Source of the DNA: Halovivax gelatinilyticus
Lineage (GTDB): Archaea > Halobacteriota > Halobacteria > Halobacteriales > Natrialbaceae
DNA length: 64,000 nucleotides
NCBI RefSeq assembly: GCF_024300625.1
Contig: NZ_CP101322.1
Span: 2,555,992 to 2,619,991 of the forward strand
Reading direction: 5' to 3'
Shown: one piece after another, positions 51,927 through 59,719 of the stretch
How positions within the stretch are numbered: the stretch's first letter is position 1
How the letters are laid out: every line of letters begins with the position of its first letter
The notes under the pieces: model-generated
What the model was told of the DNA's origin: nothing
Databases searched by the model: none
What the model saw: only the letters and a program-made list of their open reading frames with translations
Position numbers and translations under genes: made by a program

Positions 51927-53483
51927 ATGGCGCAGGTAGAACTGACAAATCGGGTGACGCGCCTCGGCGAGATCGCCGCCGACATGGAAGACTGTGAGTC
52001 CGCGGACGATCTCTTCGAGTTTACGGTGTCTGCTGCGACGCGCGTCATCGAGTTCGACGCGGCGATCGTCTGTACACTCGAATCTGATCAGTTTCGACCC
52101 AAGGCGGCGTATTCGACCCGACTCGTCCCTGGCGACCTCCTCTCGGCCGGCGATGGCATCGCCGGGGCGACGTTTCGGGCCGGCCACTCCATCCGGGTCG
52201 ACGACGTTCGGTCGGACGAGCGGGCGGCCCCGTCGGCGGATCACATTCGATCCGTGCTTTCGACTCCCTTCGCCGAACGAGGCGTCCTCCAGTTACATTC
52301 GACGCGCGTCGGCGCGTTCGACGACGTGGACGTCGCGTTCGCGGAACTGTTGGTCGCGACCGTCACGAACGCGCTCGGTCGAGTCCGGTACGAACGCGCA
52401 CTCGGCGAGGAGCGAGATCAGTTCGCCGCACTGTTCGAGAACGTACCCGATGCGGCGCTGGCGTACCGGGTGACGAACGGGACGAAGATCATCGACTCGG
52501 TCAACTCCTCGTTCGTCGGCGTCTTCGACACCTACGGCGAGGAGGTCGTCGGTCGCCCGGTCGATTCGATCGTCGGCGTGCCGGACGAACTCGCACACTC
52601 TGATCAGTCAGTTCCAGTCGAACCCAACCGACGCACAGACGCTGAAGTCGTTCGCGAGACGCCCGACGGACCGCGGCCGTTTTTACTCCGTAACGTCCCG
52701 ATCAGAACGGACGACGACTCGACCCGCGGCTACCTCATCTACACCGATCTCACGACCTTGAAAGAACGCGAACGAGAGCTCGAGCAAAAGAACGAGCGGC
52801 TCGATCAATTCGCGAGCATGGTCAGCCACGACCTGCGAAACCCCTTGAACGTCGCGGCCGGCTACCTGGAACTGGCGAAGGAAGAAAACCACTGCGAGGA
52901 ACTCGAGGCGATCGAACGCGCCCACCGACGAATGGGTCGACTCATCGAGGACGTCCTCTCGCTGGCTCGCGACGGTGGATCGGTCGACTCACCCCAGCCG
53001 GTCCACCTCGGGACGGTCGTCAGGGAAGCCTGGGATCACGTTTCGACCGATGGGGGCACGCTCAGGGTCGACGGCGACGTGATCGAACGCGCCGATCCGA
53101 ACCGATTACTCCAGATGTTCGAGAACCTCTTTCGAAACGCCGTGGAGCACGGCTCCACGAGCCGTGCAGAACCTGACGATTCTGCAGACGCGATCGAACA
53201 CGCCGGTCCGGACGTGACGGTCCGCGTCGAGGCGACGTCGGACGGATTCGCGATTAGCGACGACGGTCCCGGGATCGACCGTGAGGTTAGAGAACGTATC
53301 TTCGAATCCGGATACACCACGACGTGTGAGAATACGGGGCTCGGACTGGCGATCGTCGATCAGATCGTGGAGGCTCACGGCTGGGAAATCACCGTCTCAG
53401 AGAGCGAACAGGGTGGCATGCGTATCGACGTGTGGACCGGTCGCGACGAGTCGGCGTTTGGGTCGGGTGAGCCCCGTGGCTGA
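51927..53483 (+). CDS. soluble GAF-PAS histidine kinase
   Basis: This 518-residue kinase has no membrane helix. Order: GAF domain (about 10-155: LFEFTVSAATRVIEFDAAIV, GDGIAGATFRAGHSIRVDD), PAS domain (about 165-280, FENVPDAALAYRV, NSSFVGVFDTYGEEVVGRP), HisKA with the phospho-His301 in FASMVSHDLRNPLNVAAGYL, and HATPase with MFENLFRNAVEHGS, ISDDGPGID and NTGLGLAIVDQI. It should sense a soluble signal. No receiver protein is adjacent. Instead its end overlaps the large CHAT-like gene by 8-17 bases, suggesting that the two work together. The ATG at 51927 precedes GAF directly. Confidence 0.9.
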   Translation: MAQVELTNRVTRLGEIAADMEDCESADDLFEFTVSAATRVIEFDAAIVCTLESDQFRPKAAYSTRLVPGDLLSAGDGIAGATFRAGHSIRVDDVRSDERAAPSADHIRSVLSTPFAERGVLQLHSTRVGAFDDVDVAFAELLVATVTNALGRVRYERALGEERDQFAALFENVPDAALAYRVTNGTKIIDSVNSSFVGVFDTYGEEVVGRPVDSIVGVPDELAHSDQSVPVEPNRRTDAEVVRETPDGPRPFLLRNVPIRTDDDSTRGYLIYTDLTTLKERERELEQKNERLDQFASMVSHDLRNPLNVAAGYLELAKEENHCEELEAIERAHRRMGRLIEDVLSLARDGGSVDSPQPVHLGTVVREAWDHVSTDGGTLRVDGDVIERADPNRLLQMFENLFRNAVEHGSTSRAEPDDSADAIEHAGPDVTVRVEATSDGFAISDDGPGIDREVRERIFESGYTTTCENTGLGLAIVDQIVEAHGWEITVSESEQGGMRIDVWTGRDESAFGSGEPRG

Positions 53484-55551
53484 GGGCCACCCCGGTTCGT
53501 TCGGCTTCGACGACGGGCGTCCGCTCGTCGAGACGGACGTGACAGGAACCGCCCTCGAAGTTACGGATATCGCGGGCAATCACCTCGTGTTCGATCTCAC
53601 CGGGTGGGATTCGATCTCCACGCCGTGTTCGTTCGAGGAACCGATCGACGCGTCGGTCGTCGGTCGGGTCTCCGAAATTCGATACGATCTTAGAAACATC
53701 TTCGCGATCGATCGACTCGGCTCCAGAACTTCCACGGCGACCGATGCGGAACTATTCGGCGACGATATGGTACTGGTCAGCCACGACGAGGACGTTTCGT
53801 ACTCGCTACCGGCGGGTTCGTACTACGGTCGATTCGACGCCGACATTTTTACGCGGATACACTTCGACGGCCCCGCGACGGTCCGAAATCGGTCGTACGG
53901 ACGCCTCTCGATCTCGTTTTCACAGCCAACGCCGGTCACGTTCGGCTTCAAATCGGCCGTCGAACTCCCGCAAACCTCGCTCGCCGTCGCCCCGACGACT
54001 GACGACATCGCGAGGGGACTGGGTCACCTCTCCGCGTCGCTTCGCACGACGGGACCCGATCGAGTGCATCGAAATTATCGCGGCTACCCGCCGCTGTTGT
54101 CGATCGGATCGGAGACGGCGATTCCCGACGAGGTGGTCGACGCGACGCCGGAGACCGGCCTCGACATCGTCGTTCCGGATCGTCTGGGCGCACTCGTTAC
54201 CGCGGCACCGCTCGCGTACTTTCTGGGGGCGACGCTCACCCCGTCGGACGAGGTGTCTCCGACGCTTCGTAGCGTCGACGGCGATCTCTCGTACGACCTC
54301 ACCGGTGGACGTTCGCTCGCCGAGTCAGTCAGATCGCTCCTCGAACGATGTTTCTTCCTGGACCTGATGGTCTGCTGGCTGGGTCCGGAAGAACCCAGAC
54401 TTTCCGAGTACGACCGTCTCGTGGCGGCCGGCGTCGATCTCGAACGCTGTGCAACCGAACCGCTCGAATCGCGGGTGGCGACGTTCCTCGAGTGTCCTGA
54501 CGACCTCATCGCGGACGTCCTTCCGTCCTGGCCGTATCGGATGGTCGTCGACCCGTCTCCGGAGACCGTCTCGGTCGTCCCGCACGTGATTCACGATATG
54601 GCGTCGATCTCCGTACCCGGTGACGAGCGTCCGCACCCCAACCACCGACCCGACGGAGAGACCCCGGCCGAGCGTCTTCGCCAGTGTCAGGTGCTGTGTG
54701 GATCCATCGGCGACGATCCGATCGAGGGGGCGGTGGAGACGCTCCCGATCGCCTACGAGAACAGGCTGTCGTATCTCGCTCGCGATCGGGAGGCGATTTC
54801 GGTCGTGGTCGCCGGCGGACCGACCGTCGAGCGCTCTCACGTCGAGTCGTTCGTCTCGACGTACGCCGCCCGTGACGAGAACGTCTCGCCGACGGTCGAA
54901 TCGCTCGTCGATCCGACGGTGGCTGAACTCGCCGCGTCGATCGAGGGCGGATGCGACCTGCTTCACTACGTCGGGCCGTCGGCGGGCGAGTCGATCCGCT
55001 GTCGTGACGGCACGCTCTCACCGACGTCGATTTCGTCCGTCGACGTTCCGGTCGTACTGGTCGACGGCGACGACCACTCGACCGTGGCTCGACGGTTCGT
55101 CGAGCGCGGGAGCGTGTGTGCGGTCTCGCGACAGCCGGCGGCCGTTTCGCGTCGCGAGACGCTTCTCGGGGAGCTGCTCTTGTTCGGCCAGAGCGTCGCG
55201 ACGGCCGCTCGGTGTGCGGCGGTCGATGGAACGGTAAAACCGGCCACGATCGTCGGTGACGGCTCCTATCGGTACATCGCGAAGTGGCGACCGACGTCTG
55301 TGCAGGTGCTCTCGGAACGATCGGACGGCCGCGTTTCGATCACGGTCGTTCCGTTCCCGGTCGATCCGGTGGGCGCACACTGGATGAAAGAACACGACAG
55401 CGGGAAACACCTCATGCCGTCGGCCTACTCGATCGAAACTGACGTCACCGCGCTGAACGAACACTTCTCTCAGAACTCCCAGCCCGTCCTCTACGATGGC
55501 CGGTATTACATGGTGGACGAACAACGCCAGTTGCTCTATCCGATCGCGTAG
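53467..55551 (+). CDS. large protein with degenerate CHAT-like (caspase-fold) domain
   Basis: This 694-residue protein starts with GTG (53467; a second GTG at 53476) inside the kinase gene's last codons. The N-terminal 250 residues are beta-rich (HLVFDLTGWDSI, SYSLPAGSYYG, SFSQPTPVTFGFKSA). The region 480-590 looks like a CHAT peptidase fold: His500 in CDLLHYVGPSAGESI, a DGTLSPTSI strand, VVLVDGDDH (529-537) where the catalytic Cys of CHAT normally sits, and GSVCAVSRQ then the LLGELLLFGQSVATAA helix. The Cys is replaced, so it is probably not a protease. Function unknown; the link to the kinase suggests a signal output or sensor partner. Confidence 0.65.
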   Translation: MSPVAEGHPGSFGFDDGRPLVETDVTGTALEVTDIAGNHLVFDLTGWDSISTPCSFEEPIDASVVGRVSEIRYDLRNIFAIDRLGSRTSTATDAELFGDDMVLVSHDEDVSYSLPAGSYYGRFDADIFTRIHFDGPATVRNRSYGRLSISFSQPTPVTFGFKSAVELPQTSLAVAPTTDDIARGLGHLSASLRTTGPDRVHRNYRGYPPLLSIGSETAIPDEVVDATPETGLDIVVPDRLGALVTAAPLAYFLGATLTPSDEVSPTLRSVDGDLSYDLTGGRSLAESVRSLLERCFFLDLMVCWLGPEEPRLSEYDRLVAAGVDLERCATEPLESRVATFLECPDDLIADVLPSWPYRMVVDPSPETVSVVPHVIHDMASISVPGDERPHPNHRPDGETPAERLRQCQVLCGSIGDDPIEGAVETLPIAYENRLSYLARDREAISVVVAGGPTVERSHVESFVSTYAARDENVSPTVESLVDPTVAELAASIEGGCDLLHYVGPSAGESIRCRDGTLSPTSISSVDVPVVLVDGDDHSTVARRFVERGSVCAVSRQPAAVSRRETLLGELLLFGQSVATAARCAAVDGTVKPATIVGDGSYRYIAKWRPTSVQVLSERSDGRVSITVVPFPVDPVGAHWMKEHDSGKHLMPSAYSIETDVTALNEHFSQNSQPVLYDGRYYMVDEQRQLLYPIA

Positions 55552-57478: not shown

Positions 57479-59719
57479 CTAGAGTTCCGGAACTGTCACG
57501 TGGAACCCGCCGCTGCGTGATTCGACCAGACAGAAGTGATAGCCCTGTTTTCGCGAGAGGCTGACGTGGCTGAGTTTCGAACTGCGACTCAAAAATCCAC
57601 TGGTGGTCGCCTGCTCGGCCAGCTCTAACGCACCCGGATCGAAGAAGCTCGACGTTACCGCGACGGCGCCGCCGAGGTCGGGGTAGTTCGCACAGACGGC
57701 CGACGCGTCGGCTTCGAGCGATTCGAGCATCGAGCGCGTCGCCGGGTCGCGCGAATCGTTGCAGTTTGCGACGACGAGGGGAGTTCCCCGCTTGTCGAAC
57801 GCGGCGACGTCGAACGTTATCAGATCGGGGACGTTCTCGGTGTCGTCGTCTTCGAGCGAGATTTCCGCGTCGAGTTCGACGCGATCGATCCGCGGGATCA
57901 CGTCGTAGAGGTCGGCCAGACCGGCGGCCCGACCGGTCTCGCGGATCTCGAACAGTGCGGTCTCGATCAGCCAGCTGACGAACTGGTACTGGACGGTCCC
58001 TTCGATGAACTCGTCGTAGGATACGCCGTCGACCGTCGCGTCGTTCGCGTCGAACTGGGTGTGGCGCTCCAATTGAAGGTTCTTTGCCAGGTCCGCTCTG
58101 GAGCCGTCGCCGTCGTGGGCCGATTCGAGCGTGGTCTGGCTCTTCGAATCGTACCGGACGAAGACGTTGGTCTGTGCGAGCGCCTCGGCCGGCGTCAGAC
58201 TGATCGAGCCGGTTGCTGGTGCTGTCGGCTTCGACGACGGTTGCGAGGGAGCAGCGGGTGACGAGTGGCTGGATTCGAGTCGGGCTTCGAGGGATTCGAT
58301 CTGGGATTCGAGCGCCTCGATCGTCTCCGTGAGCGACTCGTTCTCGCGAGCGAGTTCGTCCCGTTCCCGTTCGAGTGCCGCTTTCGTCTCCTCTAGTTCG
58401 GTGACGCGCTGGGTCAGCTGGTCGATCTTGTCCTCGCGTTCGAGCATATCCGACTGGAGCGCTCTGTCGGTGGAGGCGACCGCGTCCGGATCGGGGTCGG
58501 CGCGGGTCGCCACGTCCTCTGACGTCTGGCTCGACGGGGCCGACTGCGCTGGCTCCGCCTCCGTTCGACTCCGTCGTCGTTCGGACCGGTGTGAGGTGAC
58601 CTCCGATGATCGCTCGGTTCGCGAGGCGTCCGGATCGATCGACGGGATCTGTCGCGTCTCCCGCCAGCGAGCTTCCTCTCGAAACCGTTCGTCTTTGGCG
58701 CCTTCAGCGGCGTTCTCGTCGCCGGTCGACGTCGTGATCGACGACGGATCGTCCGATTCCGCGTCGTCCGAGTCGGTTCCCTTCGGACGCGTGATCGAAT
58801 CGGGCGTGTCCGGGTCTGGCGTCTCGACCGATTCGTCGGCGACGGTCGCGTCGGGGCGATCGGTGTTCGAGGAATCCTGTTCGTCGTCGGTTTCGGAAGG
58901 CGTCGGTTCGTTCGGCGCCCCGTCGGTTTCGGCGGCCGTCGCGTCGGCCTGGGATTCGTCGGGATCGGTTTCGCTCACACCGCCCGTTCCGGGCGACTCG
59001 AGCGAGCGGTCGCCGGGCCCAGCCGACGCCTCTGCGTCCTCGATCGGCGTCGATTCGGAGGCGGTGGTCTCCCCACTCGCTTCGTCGTAGCCCGCTTCGT
59101 CGTAGCTCGTCTCGACCGACTCGGTCGGAGTCGGATCGTCGGTCGGTTCCGATGGTTCCTCCTGGACGGGATCGGGTTCGGTGCCCGGAATGTCGGTCAC
59201 GGTAACGTCGACGTCGACGACGTCGTAAATACCGACCTCGTCGTCGGCCAGCCGGAACGCTTCTTCACCCGTGACGAGTCGCTCGGCGTTGCCGATGTAG
59301 GCGGCGGACATCCGCCGTCCGCCGTAGTAGACGGCGTAGTAGTCGCCGGAGAGAACCTGCTCTGACAGCTCGACGTAGCCGGTAAACGAGCCCTGCTGGA
59401 GCGTTCGATCGACCTCGGCGAGCGACGTCTCGTTGGTGTAGTAGGTTCCGCGCGTTTCGCCGCCGGTTTCTAACATCGCCGCCAGCAGCGGCAGGACGTC
59501 CTCGGGGGCCTCGTAGATCGTCCCGGTGGTCGCGGCGACGTCTTCGATATCACCGTCTACGACGCCGACGACCCGGCCGTTTAACAGGAACAGCCAGGCG
59601 CCGGCCGCGGAGACGGCGCCGGAGAAGTTGGCGTCGGCGAGTGCGGTGAGTTCGTCCGTACCGCCGGCAAACGGACGCGACTCCCATCGCTCGACGCGCG
59701 CTTGCGTACGTGAGTCCAT
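57479..59719 (-). CDS. large haloarchaeal protein of the DUF7527 type
   Basis: This 746-residue protein has three parts. N-terminal domain (about 1-180, MDSRTQARVERWESRPFAGG, YYAVYYGGRRMSAAYIGNAERL) is alpha/beta. The middle (about 185-430) is a disordered acidic Asp/Glu/Ser/Thr region, followed by a coiled coil (about 435-490, LEREDKIDQLTQRVTELEET). The C-terminal domain (about 520-746) ends GFHVTVPEL and contains PDLITFDVAAFDKRGTPLVV, an order of acidic residues in strands reminiscent of restriction-endonuclease folds but without a clear E-x-K. Function unknown. It stands alone with a TATA-like TTATAATT about 22 bases upstream. Confidence 0.7.
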   Translation of the reverse strand: MDSRTQARVERWESRPFAGGTDELTALADANFSGAVSAAGAWLFLLNGRVVGVVDGDIEDVAATTGTIYEAPEDVLPLLAAMLETGGETRGTYYTNETSLAEVDRTLQQGSFTGYVELSEQVLSGDYYAVYYGGRRMSAAYIGNAERLVTGEEAFRLADDEVGIYDVVDVDVTVTDIPGTEPDPVQEEPSEPTDDPTPTESVETSYDEAGYDEASGETTASESTPIEDAEASAGPGDRSLESPGTGGVSETDPDESQADATAAETDGAPNEPTPSETDDEQDSSNTDRPDATVADESVETPDPDTPDSITRPKGTDSDDAESDDPSSITTSTGDENAAEGAKDERFREEARWRETRQIPSIDPDASRTERSSEVTSHRSERRRSRTEAEPAQSAPSSQTSEDVATRADPDPDAVASTDRALQSDMLEREDKIDQLTQRVTELEETKAALERERDELARENESLTETIEALESQIESLEARLESSHSSPAAPSQPSSKPTAPATGSISLTPAEALAQTNVFVRYDSKSQTTLESAHDGDGSRADLAKNLQLERHTQFDANDATVDGVSYDEFIEGTVQYQFVSWLIETALFEIRETGRAAGLADLYDVIPRIDRVELDAEISLEDDDTENVPDLITFDVAAFDKRGTPLVVANCNDSRDPATRSMLESLEADASAVCANYPDLGGAVAVTSSFFDPGALELAEQATTSGFLSRSSKLSHVSLSRKQGYHFCLVESRSGGFHVTVPEL

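Follow-up and report, generated by a model that had tools for sequence, protein, structure and literature searches.

A haloarchaeal histidine kinase gene retained beside the gene of a predicted catalytically degenerate CHAT-like protein

In a 64,000-nucleotide stretch of the Halovivax gelatinilyticus genome, which we call the window, the gene of a soluble histidine kinase overlaps that of a 694-residue protein. Comparison with relatives indicates that this partner is a catalytically degenerate member of a CHAT family by descent and not an active protease. On balance, we consider the pair to be a co-inherited and probably translationally coupled signalling module, in which the kinase has a dead protease as dedicated partner, the latter serving as regulator, scaffold or output. 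The pairing appears to be undescribed; in the literature searched, no paper combining a CHAT domain, haloarchaea and a histidine kinase was found.

The kinase and its overlapping partner gene

The kinase gene (51927..53483, plus strand) encodes a 518-residue protein to which Pfam gave a GAF-PAS-HisKA-HATPase architecture, with HATPase_c (E 2e-20), HisKA (3e-17) and GAF_2 (9e-11) as domains and a PAS_9 match (0.001) below the Pfam cut-off. Its catalytic motifs are intact, with phospho-acceptor His301, N-box Asn404 and the G boxes all present. An earlier note on this DNA, made by eye, had described a soluble GAF-PAS kinase without a receiver partner, and the domain searches agreed: Pfam reported no receiver domain in the kinase, the partner contained no REC domain either, and no receiver-domain gene was present among the scanned neighbours of the pair. 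Thus, the locus does not have the REC-domain partner of a classical two-component system. No RNA families were found around it. Archaeal kinases are often cytoplasmic with multiple PAS/GAF domains, and bacterial genomes, in contrast to archaea, hold similar numbers of kinases and regulators (PMC5847659). The kinase is therefore of a typical archaeal type, but its neighbour is a predicted caspase-fold pseudoenzyme in place of a receiver protein.

The partner gene (53467..55551, plus strand) starts with GTG inside the last kinase codons, giving the overlap that the earlier note had pointed out, 17 nt in length (53467..53483, plus strand); an alternative in-frame GTG at 53476, slightly favoured by codon usage, would shorten it to 8 nt. 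The structure model divided the protein into an N-terminal beta-rich domain (residues about 20-175), a middle region (about 178-380), a CHAT-like domain (about 440-600) and a C-terminal region (about 605-694). Within the CHAT-like domain, the two motifs picked out by eye were found as described, HYVGPS at residues 500-505 (54964..54981, plus strand) and VVLVDGDDH at residues 529-537 (55051..55077, plus strand). They aligned with HYIGHC and FFLNACGS of intact relatives, respectively, so Pro504 occupies the site of the catalytic His and Asp535 that of the catalytic Cys, with Gly534 immediately before it, in line with the Asp/Gly reading of the Cys position. The catalytic His-Cys dyad is absent from the window protein, and the relatives that keep it bear out the dead-enzyme interpretation.

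Fold and range of the partner family

A model of the window partner was built with AlphaFold from a 76-sequence alignment of its family and was confident nearly throughout (pLDDT 88, pTM 0.90). In a Foldseek search of the PDB, only gingipains (RgpB, 9e-6), a separase (1e-5) and the TPR-CHAT protein of Craspase (4e-4) scored below 0.001; caspases came next, with a probability near 1, among chance matches. For L090, a relative with the dyad intact that comes from Halovivax sp. KZCA124, the model's top match was SAVED-CHAT (2e-7), with separases, gingipain and caspases next. These matches between predicted models and known structures support a caspase/separase/CHAT fold for the window partner. 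As an independent test, an alignment was made of CHAT domains that PF12770 recognises in other archaeal members of the phylum, and its profile was compared with that of the partner family (hhalign). The probabilities were 97.3% and 97.5%, the match covered residues 410-590 of the window protein, and the His and Cys of the relatives fell on the His and Cys of CHAT. The kinase-paired clade alone reached 93.9%, and the controls (the kinase profile, a reversed profile and 30 shuffled profiles) did not exceed 0.7%. The by-eye CHAT assignment was thus right, and the predicted fold is not an unrelated one.

Standard libraries miss the family. Pfam and NCBIfam scans of the partner and its relatives returned nothing significant, an HMM search of the window's genome with PF12770 gave no match, and a PDB sequence search with the partner and two profiles gave only chance matches such as GCN4 coiled coils. 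The PADLOC-DB defence models matched neither the window partner nor three relatives, and an intact-dyad relative had no match in phage records.

Of the 61 related genomes, 54 contained relatives at E <= 1e-3, frequently several of them. Five members are encoded in the window's genome: the kinase-paired window protein; a second kinase-paired member about 62 kb from it (C1:2545677); two intact-dyad members (C1:140838-142928 and C1:2817158-2819245); and a degenerate unpaired member (1173906). Among 393 genomes drawn from the phylum, matches at E <= 1e-10 came from 71 genomes belonging to the same order and from four belonging to a single other family (f25). A His-Cys dyad (e.g. GHC...FNSC) is apparent in three of the four members from that other family but not in the remaining one, suggesting, though not proving, that the intact state is ancestral. 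Three of the four outside, non-haloarchaeal loci (L198-L201) lie near the archaeal primase gene dnaG. Taken together, these comparisons indicate that the partner descends from an archaeal CHAT family whose other main branches keep the dyad. The dead-caspase partner of the earlier note was borne out, but the note, made from the sequence alone, could not show that the CHAT family to which it belongs is large in archaea and mostly intact.

Loss of the dyad and conservation of the pairing

Among 129 distinct members, from a sample that is not random, since the named loci are the best 80 matches of a scan, 84 were intact and unpaired, 39 degenerate and paired, and six degenerate and unpaired; none was intact and paired. 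All 84 intact members carried GHC...LNACGS and had no adjacent kinase. Two candidate kinase neighbours of intact members were rejected, one being a 133-residue fragment 1.9 kb away (L153) and the other a kinase three genes off (L076). In the paired members the Cys was lost in 39/39 and the His in 38/39; the kinase lay on the same strand in all 39 and always kept the phospho-acceptor His (His301 in the window) and the N-box Asn. Three of the six degenerate unpaired members were extra tandem copies at paired loci (L046 and L059), and the other three formed a separate branch (L050 and L077). A quick-search tree of 66 members placed all paired members in one clade of 42 (SH-aLRT 99), which otherwise held only the three tandem copies. 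These results indicate, at the level of sequence, that the dyad disappeared at or close to the base of one branch, whose members are found beside a GAF-PAS kinase with intact motifs. Since this was essentially one evolutionary event, a causal link between dyad loss and pairing is beyond statistical test.

One locus carries three pseudo-CHAT genes in tandem next to a single kinase gene (L046:5601-12540). The further degenerate branch without an adjacent kinase is found at L077:4542-9022 and L050:5442-7580, and members at L202:5058-7205, L205:3099-4886 and L229:1017-3191 look similarly degenerate.

The partner might instead be a different enzyme, with Asp or Glu in the former His or Cys place, or C512, providing another chemistry. 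The protein is indeed strongly conserved and under purifying selection, C512 is invariant, and 24 of the 39 paired members have Asp or Glu at the former catalytic His. However, the replacements vary widely, which is not what a new active site would show: the former His position holds D, E, N, R, P, T or S, and the former Cys position P, T, A, F, Y, R, S or D. C512 is also kept in intact members, so its role is structural or shared. We regard such a new enzyme as very improbable and take the partner most likely to be a non-proteolytic regulator, scaffold or output.

The pairing itself extends well beyond this genome, recurring at the corresponding chromosomal position and also in several paralogous pairs. 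At a strict threshold, the window-type pair was found in 17 of the 125 genomes of the taxonomic family, and at least three more have it with split or weaker matches (G029, G088, G123). All 20 loci inspected had a divergent Trm112-like gene next to this pair, and in 18 of them purA followed immediately downstream. Paralogous pairs elsewhere have kinases of 500-800 residues and occur in either gene order; one paired member is on a Natrononativus plasmid. Conservation of the same place in 20/20 loci, together with several paralogous clades, argues against chance. In most of the window-type loci shown, a gene for a DUF7527 protein with a coiled-coil stretch (57479-59719 in the window, minus strand) is likewise retained close to the pair, separated from it by purA and a small HTH-like gene.

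It could be argued that the two are independent genes held together by linkage, the kinase acting on distant receivers as many haloarchaeal kinases do. Such kinases are numerous (56 candidates in this genome, from a first look for P0002), and the synteny with purA and the Trm112-like gene could reflect block inheritance. Yet the pairing is also kept at many further chromosomal sites and on the plasmid, in both gene orders, and the most similar kinases are paired ones in every case: when matches to the window kinase were ranked over the 125 genomes, the best 29 all adjoined a member of the partner family, and below that rank most inspected matches did not. We therefore find mere neighbourhood unlikely and keep to the reading of a co-inherited pair, whose two genes, by comparison of the sequences, have been duplicated, moved and lost together.

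The distance matrices of kinase and partner were correlated (r = 0.935; maximum of 2000 permutations, 0.23), although part of this correlation is plain shared descent. In close pairs, dN/dS of the partner was 0.14-0.31 and that of the kinase was similar, indicating purifying selection on both and a partner that is not decaying. Genes overlapped by 1-10 nt in 16 of the 39 pairs; genes outside the window were called by a simple codon-usage script, so their start sites are approximate. The proposal that the pair is translated together fits the overlapping genes, but strict translational coupling is not universal, as the gene order was reversed in eight of the 39 pairs and the gap exceeded 100 nt in several. 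Neither the called genes nor ten additional loci that have long reading frames yielded a kinase-partner fusion.

A possible mode of action and the relation to known systems

The cytoplasmic kinase may sense a small-molecule or redox signal through its GAF/PAS region and would then work with the dead protease as its dedicated partner in place of a receiver-domain protein. The pseudo-CHAT protein could bind the kinase, or a target that it can no longer cleave, and might act as an allosteric regulator, a scaffold or an output; phosphotransfer to it is not assumed. The earlier note had suggested a new signalling module. This is reasonable in that the two proteins form a retained pair, while we infer their function, mechanism and physical contact.

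Pseudo-caspases are known to regulate caspases, and by analogy the pseudo-CHAT protein might be a decoy that pairs or competes with intact CHAT proteases of the same cell under control of the kinase. The window's genome does encode its two intact-dyad members, and proteins of the pseudo-CHAT type retain the complete fold together with many family-invariant residues (e.g. H500, C512, D514, G597, D598). Against this, most haloarchaea have intact members, with or without the pseudo clade; no operon unites these members with the pairs; and the two groups are only about 25% identical in sequence. A decoy role thus seems improbable to us, and a partner dedicated to the kinase remains the preferred reading.

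The partner resembles CHAT proteins (PF12770; clan CD, e.g. SAVED-CHAT and TPR-CHAT/Csx29) in predicted fold, in profile similarity and in motif order, which in its family runs hydrophobic-His...Gly-His, then DG-x-L, then LNAC. Unlike them, it is missed by PF12770, has neither catalytic residue and is associated with a histidine kinase rather than with CRISPR or the sensing of cyclic nucleotides. In Csx29, a pseudo-caspase domain is combined with an active caspase domain (PMC10028731). Bacterial pseudo-orthocaspases likewise have a caspase fold and are conserved despite loss of the His-Cys dyad, but they are a different family; the survey describing them found archaea to have neither pseudo-orthocaspases nor pseudo-metacaspases, and histidine kinases do not occur in its text (PMC6426788). 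Separases and gingipains gave the best PDB fold matches, and alignments of about 370-500 columns suggest that, as in those proteins, an extra subdomain precedes the catalytic one; however, sequence identity is only 10-14%, the accessory domains differ, and the window protein has no dyad.

The caspase character of the family has not gone wholly unnoticed, as a relative on a Halomarina plasmid (WP_254546615.1) is already named 'caspase family protein' in the RefSeq/PLSDB annotation. With few exceptions, the other relatives listed are 'hypothetical protein', among them the paired one on the Natrononativus plasmid. The family is therefore a widespread, largely unannotated archaeal caspase/separase-fold family that standard domain libraries miss, with apparently active (candidate) and dead branches, the dead one apparently recruited once as a sensor-kinase partner. 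Stress-linked caspase-like activity has been reported in Haloferax volcanii, and archaeal genomes were said to have no clear caspase homologues (PMC3615174). The intact branch offers candidate genes for this haloarchaeal activity, which is without a known gene. A broader system, in which kinases control proteolysis through pseudo-protease partners and the orphan caspase-like activity comes from the intact members, is conceivable, but we hold it to be distinctly unlikely.

The main intact-dyad branch is often flanked by glyA and tbsP, the latter encoding a transcription regulator (e.g. L052:3951-8610, L057:3726-8498, L067:3781-8599 and L075:3527-8491), making a functional link to TbsP a candidate; no papers were found that name the H. 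volcanii locus tags looked up for the tbsP region. Two members with an apparently intact dyad (L221:574-3857 and L230:944-4311) lie directly downstream of a gene for a HalOD1 + DUF7504 protein, which the family member overlaps in one of the two loci. As HalOD1 serves haloarchaeal response regulators as an output domain, the ties of the partner family to signalling may be wider.
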